Source of the DNA: Chlorogloea sp. CCALA 695
GTDB lineage: Bacteria; Cyanobacteriota; Cyanobacteriia; Cyanobacteriales; Chroococcidiopsidaceae
DNA: 32,289 nucleotides
Direction of reading: 5' to 3'
Assembly: GCF_003003885.1 (NCBI RefSeq)
Contig: NZ_PVWN01000049.1
Span: forward strand, 1 to 32,289
This document shows positions 12,025 through 32,289 of the stretch, in pieces (positions within the stretch are counted from its first letter, which is position 1; each line of letters begins with the position of its first letter). The translations under genes were made by a program, and so were the position numbers. The notes under the pieces are model-generated. The model worked only from the letters and a program-made list of their open reading frames with translations. It had not been told where the DNA came from and ran no database searches.

Positions 12025-12097
12025 CGAGTATGGAGGGATTTGAACCCCCGACCCTCAGAACCGGAATCTGATGCTCTATCCACTGAGCTACATACCC
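12025..12097 (-). tRNA. tRNA-Arg (anticodon CCG)
   Basis: The minus strand folds into a full cloverleaf of 73 bases. The acceptor GGGTATG pairs with CATACTC (one G-U), the D-arm is GCTC/GAGC, the anticodon stem TCAGA/TCTGA encloses the loop TTCCGGT, and the T-arm is GGGGG-TTCAAAT-CCCTC. The anticodon CCG reads CGG. The discriminator base is G and no CCA is encoded. The integrase gene lies immediately downstream, so the 3' end of this gene is the likely integration site. Confidence 0.97.
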
Positions 12098-30625: not shown

Positions 30626-31720
30626 ATGGATTCTATAGAAATAGCAGACATACCTAGTACAAAAAAAACTTATCGTCCGCGCTTAGTATTGCCTGTAGGC
30701 GATCCAGCCGGGATTGGAATAGAAGTAACTTTACAAACATTGAACGATTCAGAAGTGACAAAGAATTGTGATGTTACTGTTATAGGCGATCACATTCAAT
30801 TAACCGAATTTTACGATCGCCAAGATTTAGAGAAGCAAAAGTATATACATCCAAGTAAATTATCGATTATAGATATTCGTAGTAGCAATCAAATAACTGT
30901 AGGTAGAGGTAATGCTGCTAGTGGAGATGCAAGTTTTAGGTACTTAGAAAATGCGATCGCGCTTACTTTGGCGGGAAAATTTGACGGGATTGTTACAGCC
31001 CCGATTGCTAAATCTGCATGGAAAGCGGCGGGATACAATTATCCTGGACAAACCGAACTATTAGCCGAACGCTCAGGAGTAGAAAAGTTTGGGATGTTAT
31101 TTGTAGGTACATCGCCCCATACAGGCTGGACGCTGCGAAGTCTATTAGCTACCACACATATACCTTTAAGACAGGTAGCAGACACCCTCACGCCGCAGCT
31201 AATGGCAGCTAAACTTGATTTATTGGTAGAGTGCTTAGACAAATATTTTGGGATAACAAAGCCAAGAATTGCGATCGCGGGTTTAAATCCGCATAGTGGG
31301 GAACAAGGGCAGTTAGGGACAGAAGAACAGGAATGGATGATACCTTGGTTAGAACAAGAACGCGATCGTCGTCCGGGGTTAGTTTTAGATGGGCTAATTC
31401 CCCCTGATACCATGTGGGTAAAACCCGCTCAAGCGTGGTTTAGGAGTATTGATAGTTCAAAAGCTCACGATGCTTATTTAGCGTTGTATCACGATCAAGG
31501 TTTAATTCCGGTCAAACAATTAGCCTTTGATCGCGCCGTCAATACTTCTATTGGTTTACCCTTTGTGCGTACTTCACCCGATCACGGTACAGCTTTTGAT
31601 ATTGCAGGCTTAGGAATTGCCGATTCTACCAGCATGAAAGCAGCAATTTTGTTAGCAACAGAAATGGTTTGTAGAAAAATATTGCAACCAACAATCACAG
31701 AAACAAAGACACCCATATAA
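30626..31720 (+). CDS. pdxA: 4-hydroxythreonine-4-phosphate dehydrogenase
   Basis: PdxA oxidises 4-phosphohydroxythreonine in the deoxyxylulose-dependent route to pyridoxal phosphate. The 364 residues show the family marks: [79 protein letters not shown], and the metal- and NAD-binding [17 protein letters not shown]. The ATG at 30626 gives the expected length, though no Shine-Dalgarno is clear. It is divergent from petM, 65 bases away, so the two promoters must be packed between. Confidence 0.95.
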
Positions 31721-31818
31721 ATCTACTTGCCAAAAACTTGAACACCCACTGATAAGCCACTTTTGCAAGAGGTTTGGGGTCTGCCCCCCATATCTTGATT
31801 TTTCCTAAAGATAATTGA

Positions 31819-32184
31819 CATACTCCCTGGGCTGAAGTCGCAGGGATTCTTCCAGAGTCGCCTCTTGGAATTACTGGTTCATCGAGTCCACTTACCACAA
31901 TCTAGTTGCCCAAATTATGCAAGAGATGGTTCTCTCAAGCGACGTTTTGGGGGGAATCTTCACCCCAAAAGCTCGAGCCCCAGTCTTTCACTCCATTTCA
32001 GAAGTCGATTTCGGTAGGCCCGTGCCAGTATCGTTCAAACCTAATTGCTTGGTTTTCTGGTACTTGGCGCTTAAGTTTTTTACCTTTAGAAGCCTTCCTC
32101 TAAAGAACCCCCTAAACTTAGTTTTCAAGGTGCGTTAGTCTTTCGACTACTGGGTTTTTAAAGAGGTTGATTACCCTTTCTACT
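31819..32184 (-). ncRNA. Structured RNA or RNA-bearing transposon end
   Basis: The right edge shows no convincing long protein frame, but it has many strong hairpins: TAGTC-TTTC-GACTA (32136-32149), which reads as a GAAA tetraloop on minus; CTTTAGA/TCTAAAG (32084-32105); TTTTGGGG/CCCCAAAA (31945-31970); AGAGA/TCTCT (31922-31935); TTCCAGAG/CTC-TGGAA (31850-31870); and CCCTG/CAGGG (31825-31845). An extended -10 box (TGTTATAAT, hexamer 32191-32196) reads into it on minus. The last hairpin, followed on minus by AGTATGTCAA, resembles the terminal hairpin of IS200/IS605-type elements. My reading is an omega-RNA or HEARO-like RNA without its nuclease gene. A remnant of a larger element beyond the window is also possible. 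Confidence 0.5.
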
Positions 32185-32190
32185 ATGTAT

Positions 32191-32196
32191 ATTATA
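32191..32196 (-). promoter_or_regulatory. Extended -10 promoter for the structured RNA
   Basis: The minus strand reads TGTTATAAT, a perfect -10 with the TGN extension, which can work without a -35 box. Transcription would begin near 32184 and run into the hairpin region. Confidence 0.4.
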
Positions 32197-32234
32197 ACAC
32201 ATTGGAGAATAACCCTTTTCTGTCATTTTCCGGA

Positions 32235-32289
32235 TATAATAAGTAAAAGAATCAAGAGATAAAAGGCTAAGAGGTAAGCAGAGCAATGG
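32235..32289 (+). promoter_or_regulatory. Possible start of a plus-strand gene at the window edge
   Basis: TATAAT (32235-32240) precedes GAGGT and an ATG at 32286. The frame leaves the window at once, so no product can be judged. Confidence 0.25.

Follow-up and report, generated by a model that had tools for sequence, protein, structure and literature searches.

The window, that is the whole 32,289-nucleotide stretch of DNA analysed here, is the entire contig C157 of Chlorogloea sp. CCALA 695, whose 5.2 Mb genome is assembled in 168 contigs. At 31815-32212 the minus strand holds the greater part of a non-autonomous IS608-like (IS200/IS605) element, which encodes a structured RNA (Table 1). 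The signals given for IS608 in the relevant part of PMC5934647 are TTAC on the left, TCAA on the right (CR), AAAG as the left guide and GAAT as the right guide (GR), and the window copy has all four. The GAAT (GR) of its right-end hairpin lies at plus-strand 31846-31849, and its left end, located on contig C168, consists of TTAC followed by CGGAAAAATGGGTTTAAAG and a hairpin with AAAG at its base. No open reading frame of the TnpA kind occurs within the window element, which is therefore regarded as a non-autonomous derivative and not as an autonomous IS608-type member. As claimed in a preliminary description made from the sequence alone, no protein of useful length is encoded: the longest listed frame, of 73 aa, is antisense to the RNA (plus strand), and a protein gene in the element was rejected as a candidate because only short frames are present.

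The preliminary description had placed the RNA at 31819-32184, at the right edge of the window. The RNA stands, but the element spans 31815 to ~32212, and the 'edge' is an assembly break because the terminal part of an IS701-family insertion sequence occupies 32213-32289. This ~80-bp repeat recurs mostly at the ends of other contigs in CCALA 695, and the Nostoc plasmid sequence that matches it is annotated as IS701 family transposase. The C168 end adjoining leuB reads ...CTCTAACTTAC / CGGAAAAATGGGTTTAAAGCCCCGCACTTCAGGGCGGCTTTATAT and then continues into sequence resembling an IS701-type end (~80% over 37 nt). An IS701-family element has thus split the window copy and terminated contig C157; the join between C168 and C157 is deduced from synteny with genome G001 and not from an assembly. 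A look for a tnpB or iscB gene to the right of the window had been advised, and the deduced continuation holds instead an IS701-type insertion sequence, the left end of the element and then leuB on C168. A G-rich repeat (GGGGGGCAGACCCCCCAAGTCTTGG...TTTTTCCTAAAG) at 31771-31814 is scattered across CCALA 695 (a query containing it gave 32 matches in this genome, the leuB locus among them), and the window element is inserted at the edge of one of its copies.

Table 1 Features of the element, its RNA and its surroundings (window coordinates unless a contig is named).
Feature	Position	Strand	Basis or remark
Element body	31815..32212	-	~398 bp; empty site in G001 and left end on C168
Element left end, 45 bp	C168:134824-134868		Outside the window
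IS701-family insertion sequence end, interrupting the element and breaking the assembly	32213..32289	.	~80-bp repeat; Nostoc plasmid match
Extended -10 box TGTTATAAT	32191..32199	-	Sequence; conserved box upstream of GGTA
Stand-alone structured RNA, inferred 5' end ~32184	31815..32184	-	Fold, covariation; predicted read-through into flank
5' module (model R1)	32078..32184	-	Alignments A2 and A4, model R1
3' module, homologous to omega-RNA of tnpB elements	31815..32030	-	Model R2, BLAST
Lineage-specific palindromic insert, ~42 nt, outside the conserved core	31937..31978	-	2 of 34 rows of A4
Right-end hairpin with guide tetranucleotide GAAT (GR) at its 5' base	31823..31849	-	Sequence
Right cleavage site TCAA	31815..31818	-	Boundary by empty site; plus strand reads TTGA
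Predicted guide (host DNA adjoining the right end) TTATCTTTAGGAAAAATCAA	31795..31814	-	Empty site in G001 reads TTAC + guide

A look for further copies in the genome had been advised, and a second one, 76% identical over 31814-32199, is present on contig C14, flanked by ftsH and a pabC-like gene (names read from the translations), with no tnpB nearby. Close relatives lack the element at that place: the filled C14 site reads ...GAGTTTTTTTAC, the element, TCTACAAACAATCC, and the empty site in genome G005 reads ...GAGTTTTTTTACTCTACAAACAATCC with a TTAC joint; G001 has the same empty joint as G005 at this site, after a shorter T-run. On the minus strand, the window copy reads ...GTATGTCAA / TTATCTTTAGGAAAAATC and the empty site in G001 reads ...CTCTAACTTAC / TTATCTTTAGGAAAAATC. 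Both CCALA 695 copies thus sit exactly 3' of TTAC and terminate in TCAA, and neither insertion duplicated its target. Of seven loci retrieved from genome G118, five are 390-bp copies, each preceded by TTAC; over their full length they share 96.4-99.7% identity, and their flanks are unrelated (identity 0.07-0.43 on the left and 0.03-0.40 on the right). Such near-identical multicopy sets indicate recent movement.

The ends of the window copy were compared with those of a tnpB element on contig C29 of CCALA 695, and 38 of 46 aligned positions were identical on the left and 33 of 43 on the right, where shuffled controls reached at most 0.60 and 0.59, respectively. As in MITEs or PATEs of IS605, the element is short and gene-free, is multicopy (in G118) and has ends like those of a tnpB element (C29, in CCALA 695). 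GAAT, which the end-finder did not require, is present in 60 of 61 full-length distinct RNAs, compared with 152 of 1060 background windows. Of 76 copies, 25 passed a strict test of the left end (TTAC, AAAG and hairpin), one of them (L079) probably spurious, as did 5 of 301 controls, indicating that the left end is degraded or different in many copies; in the C14 copy, TAAG replaces AAAG. The strict register of the right-end hairpin was fully paired in 20 of 36 sequences (cross-sequence control, 0.21). Among the G155 copies L115-L117, L121 and L122, several have a left-end hairpin enlarged by tandem repeats (CTTCGACAAGCTCA, GCAAGCAGTGC). Viral contigs contained no exact match to two sequence patterns.

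Folding supports the earlier claim of a structured RNA on the minus strand: the minus-strand fold of 31814-32187 has an energy of -113.8 kcal/mol, compared with a shuffled mean of -96.8 (z -3.04, 0/100 shuffles as good), and the plus strand gives z -1.58 with 4/100 shuffles as good. The extended -10 box, the GAAA-loop hairpin on the minus strand and the CCCTG/CAGGG hairpin followed by TCAA, all reported previously, are in the sequence. A TATAAT-like box (TA....T, at least 4/6) is located 10-32 nt before a conserved GGTA in 79 of 80 RNA loci, compared with 243 of 1520 background windows. No T-run follows the last hairpin; the element boundary is the 3' end of the RNA, the 3' part of which ends exactly at the right end of the transposon. 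Both features would fit a transcript that runs on into a guide from the flank. The 5' module comprises a 5' stem, the pseudoknot PK1, the GAAA-loop hairpin (32138-32147) and the 5' sides of P4/P5 and PK2, while the 3' module comprises hairpin P7 (~32012-32028), P9-P11, the right-end hairpin and a palindromic insert. One of the most striking hairpins is this insert, which lies outside the conserved core; of the 34 rows of alignment A4 it occurs in the window and C14 copies only, and a diverged version is borne by L045, which is not in A4 owing to its length. The same ~42-nt palindrome (GAGCTTTTGGGG...CCCCAAAACGTCGCTTG) recurs at L026:1501-1550, L028:1501-1544 and L029:1501-1550, where it lies within or close to other TnpB-type RNAs (G002 and G001) or at a different location (G013), and may be a small nested mobile repeat.

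Covariation across homologues had been set beforehand as a test that could refute the RNA. From 66 distinct RNA starts, 59 sequences of 270-400 nt with both ends were obtained, leaving 36 after de-duplication, of which 34 form A4 (L164 and L123 were omitted for their long inserts). Twenty-nine named pairs in seven helices, pseudoknot-type pairings among them, were scored. In these pairs 96.4% of cells were paired, compared with 78.7% in shuffled alignments and 23-46% in slid ones, the slid control somewhat favouring the structure because it was read from the same sequences. Changes on both sides affected 178 cells in 20 of the 29 pairs, compared with 50.8 cells in shuffles, none of which (0/500) was as high, although shared ancestry inflates this test. 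Helix 5, a single pair, has 67.6% of its cells paired and fails in part of the family, and helices 6 and 7, which belong to the core shared with omega-RNA, keep compensating. The 5' stem was scored outside A4 because of one-base shifts in that alignment; with the best of three spacers taken, it was fully paired in 31 of 36 sequences, compared with 0.28 across sequences. The RNA thus withstood the test, and its compensatory change is strong.

To describe the distribution of the family, covariance models of the 5' module (R1) and the 3' module (R2) were used, each built from 17 sequences. R1 matched 92 of 195 genomes of the order and 55 of 339 genomes in a phylum sample, 52 of the latter from the same order (CCALA 695 included in each case) and the remaining three, which scored weakly, from other orders of the class; members of the family formed part of the training set behind these counts. 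Matches per genome reached at least 18 (G164). By BLAST, some match was found in 27 of 60 genomes, CCALA 695 among them, many of the matches being short. A 23-letter signature of the 5' module with one letter open matched 23 stretches of named records, including Microcystis, Crocosphaera, Nostoc, Calothrix, Tolypothrix, Spirulina and Roseofilum; two further titles bearing it, Tatlockia and Chloroflexaceae, are metagenome bins that probably correspond to G005 (same genus) and G028 (same order).

The 3' module connects this RNA to TnpB. R2 matched the 3' ends of tnpB loci in CCALA 695 at L059 (54.6 bits), L056 (40.1), L057 (29.3) and L054 (25.1), weakly at L058 (16.4 bits, E 0.07) and L055 (10.7 bits, E 2.2) and, among these loci, not at L053; it also matched tnpB elements of relatives. 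A stand-alone copy from G164 (L127) shares 70-72% DNA identity over 133 nt with five tnpB 3' ends from G118 (BLAST), and the similarity starts at about the hairpin ACUACCGUGGGGCACACGG, which is tnpB coding sequence in the autonomous element. The 3' module is thus homologous to the omega-RNA at tnpB 3' ends, and because the homology begins within tnpB coding sequence, the stand-alone RNA looks like a tnpB 3' end and right end that was freed from coding and joined to a new 5' module. R1 matched CCALA 695 at the two stand-alone copies only, and thus the tnpB elements of this genome lack the 5' module, which with its own predicted promoter occupies the place of tnpB. CCALA 695 has open TnpB genes, that on C29 encoding 402 aa with OrfB_IS605 and Cas12f1-like TNB domains. 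Its only match to TnpA (Y1) is partial with an internal stop, so the CCALA 695 copies may now be stranded.

The nuclease was absent from the elements, as had been claimed. Seventy-seven of 79 distinct RNA loci had no TnpB-like stretch in the flanks examined, and in the other two (L136 and L137) it lies outside the element. These flanks had medians of ~1.5 kb, with 59 of the 79 loci covering 1 kb or more upstream of the RNA start and 1.4 kb or more downstream of it, and the 79 loci are fewer than the total of R1 matches, of which many more exist. Among 49 loci, TnpB scored only at L037, a tnpB element without R1. At L137 (G118:C2 near 362883) the TnpB-like stretch is on the opposite strand and starts directly after the right end, so that the predicted guide of this copy falls within a tnpB coding region, in antisense orientation. 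At L032:1475-1569 (G052:C9) and L029:1291-1391, R2-type 3' modules are preceded by a different sequence and have no TnpB-like stretch in the examined flanks; these are possibly a second kind of stand-alone RNA. A protein gene over the region in a close relative had been named earlier as evidence that would count against an RNA. In annotated plasmid records, an antisense frame over one homologue (L232; AP018315.1, 123071-123454) is labelled 'transposase', which is probably a spurious gene call, and a 'hypothetical protein' (H6) and a TnpB gene (H5) overlap partial matches to the 3' module.

Comparison with Rfam (4227 families) at gathering scores gave no match to the RNA, the sole match in the window being a tRNA at 12025-12097. 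At E up to 10, 31500-32289 gave four chance-level matches, none of them HEARO, and at E up to 1 the loci of eight relatives gave no HEARO and a sub-threshold HgcC match at L088 (E 0.18). The HEARO and IS605 models, to which the preliminary description had looked for a match, therefore yielded none. HEARO, IS605-orfB and the group I intron are all Rfam families; IS605-orfB, group I introns (IStron) and other catalogued RNAs were rejected because no covariance model matched. IscB omega-RNA, which belongs to HEARO, has its guide and the element boundary at its 5' end, and this candidate was rejected both for the missing Rfam match and because the boundary here lies at the RNA's 3' end. The earlier assignment was to guide RNAs of the TnpB or IscB type; the TnpB version is supported by the 3'-module homology, the IS608-type ends with precise insertion and the flanks free of TnpB-like stretches in 77 of 79 loci, and the HEARO/IscB version is not supported.

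We propose that this is an RNA-only, non-autonomous IS608-like transposon that uses TnpA and TnpB in trans and whose guide aims TnpB at the vacated site, a reading to which we assign a probability of roughly three in four and which builds on the observed anatomy, mobility, covariation and homology. The RNA would be transcribed from its own promoter across TCAA into the flank, so that its last ~16-20 nt would be a guide copied from host DNA, and a TnpB from another element in the cell would bind it. TnpA made elsewhere would peel the element out and leave a re-joined donor site consisting of TTAC and the guide; TnpB would cut this site, and repair from a sister copy would restore the element and thereby retain it. 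The 5' module would replace the tnpB message, complete the scaffold by pairing its GGUUC with GAACC of the 3' module, and stabilise the RNA. For the window RNA, the predicted guide is TTATCTTTAGGAAAAATC and the predicted TAM is TTAC. The target formed by TTAC and this guide is present in G001, and a search of CCALA 695 with TTAC and 18 nt of guide, allowing up to three mismatches, matched at the window locus only.

This use in trans is suggested by the empty sites, the left end on C168, the likeness of the ends to those of the C29 element, the G118 copies, the omega-RNA homology, the covariation, the promoter box, the absence of TnpB from the flanks and the open TnpB genes in CCALA 695. It is also suggested by the known requirements of ISDra2 TnpB, which, in the part of PMC8612924 that concerns this system, needs a right-end RNA that finishes in ~16 nt of flank sequence, cuts targets adjoining the insertion motif, which serves as TAM, and is proposed to restore the element at a vacated site. 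That TnpB would accept the longer stand-alone RNA is our proposal by analogy. The section of PMC10278001 on processing describes 5' trimming of the RNA by TnpB and gives lengths of 79-466 nt for processed omega-RNAs, which leaves room for a longer scaffold. The position of the IS701 insertion, just upstream of the -10 box of the window copy, counts against the use in trans, as do the single defective TnpA match in CCALA 695, the lack of the 5' module in the tnpB elements of this genome, the shares of copies that passed the strict left-end (25 of 76) and right-end (20 of 36) tests, and the incomplete pairing of helix 5.

That insertion and the lack of an intact TnpA in CCALA 695 would also suit a fossil, namely a deletion derivative of IS605 that lost tnpB but kept part of the omega-RNA together with its right end, the structure being a relic that has no present function. 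PATE- and MITE-type deletion derivatives of IS605 are known. However, independent deletions would not share a promoter-bearing 5' module across 92 of 195 genomes, the near-identical multicopy sets speak for recent movement, and the compensatory change argues against a relic, for the family if not for this single copy; we consider a fossil unlikely. We likewise give little credence to a domesticated regulatory RNA that would serve the host and not the element, using a TnpB-like protein, perhaps nuclease-dead, that binds targets without cutting them. What speaks for it is a copy in the same place and orientation between apcB and apcC (read from sequence) in three genomes, but the G118 copies and most others inspected are at unrelated sites with mobile-element boundaries, with the consequence that guides differ between copies, and one of the three (L084) has its right end altered from the usual GTCAA to GTTAA. 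The apcB-apcC copies (L023 in G049, L082 in G121 and L084 in G089) lie ~40 nt before apcC and may be co-transcribed with that operon.

The structure might instead be cis-acting or directed at the transposase, either acting on TnpA as an RNA or serving it as folded single-stranded DNA, the omega-RNA likeness being inherited and unused. IS608 TnpA does recognise hairpins near the ends, according to the portion of PMC5934647 on end recognition. Yet the described TnpA signals are terminal, and here ~300 nt of internal structure is conserved, the core pairs of the omega-RNA (helices 6 and 7) still compensate, and the promoter box is conserved; we regard a cis-acting or transposase-directed structure as very improbable.

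The proposed RNA-only transposon shares traits with several known systems. PATEs and other MITEs derived from IS200/IS605 consist of gene-less ends that are presumably moved in trans by TnpA; the present elements likewise have IS605-type ends without protein genes, but carry a conserved guide-RNA gene and promoter, unlike a mere deletion remnant. Stand-alone omega-RNAs that lie away from the nuclease gene, and are presumably used in trans, have been mentioned for IscB. The RNA described here is similarly apart from a nuclease gene, but without a match to HEARO. Like the omega-RNA (reRNA) of TnpB, as reported for ISDra2 in the corresponding part of PMC8612924, it is a right-end RNA with a hairpin, a TCAA-type boundary and a predicted flank guide, and its 3' scaffold is homologous to that of cyanobacterial tnpB elements. 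Unlike that omega-RNA, it neither overlaps nor adjoins tnpB, has its own promoter and an extra conserved 5' module, and is roughly 280-400 nt long, compared with the ~150 nt stated for ISDra2 in the same part of PMC8612924. With IS608 of H. pylori, as far as its insertion is set out in PMC5934647, the element has in common the TTAC/TCAA sites, AAAG/GAAT at the hairpin bases and insertion 3' of TTAC without duplication, but no tnpA or tnpB lies inside it.

Literature searches of open-licence PMC papers returned no title or abstract opening that describes a guide-RNA-only TnpB-type element. Term searches of PMC12558985, PMC11870625 and PMC9956272 returned no stand-alone or non-autonomous case in the passages that contain the terms, and the main text of a review on prokaryotic MITEs (PMC10969869) contains neither 'TnpB' nor 'IS605'. 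In Anabaena sp. 90, MITEs of 77-541 bp have been catalogued, according to the part of PMC3542288 that lists them.

Taken more broadly, these elements may be widespread cyanobacterial RNA-only transposons made of two TnpA-recognised ends and a promoter-driven guide-RNA gene with a 5' module, which would parasitise other elements in two ways, borrowing TnpA for movement and TnpB for retention, the 5' module enabling the RNA to compete with tnpB-linked omega-RNA for TnpB; we consider the odds of this wider picture to be about even. Dozens of natural omega-RNA scaffolds that covary clearly, with a 5' module unmatched in Rfam, are available in this family, which may also explain some of the multicopy gene-free repeats of cyanobacteria. 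TnpB is thought to prevent the loss of the transposon that encodes it. Should stand-alone guide RNAs be able to use TnpB in trans, this nuclease would be a shared good open to gene-free parasites, which bears on the persistence of tnpB and on the separation of guide and nuclease, as in CRISPR.
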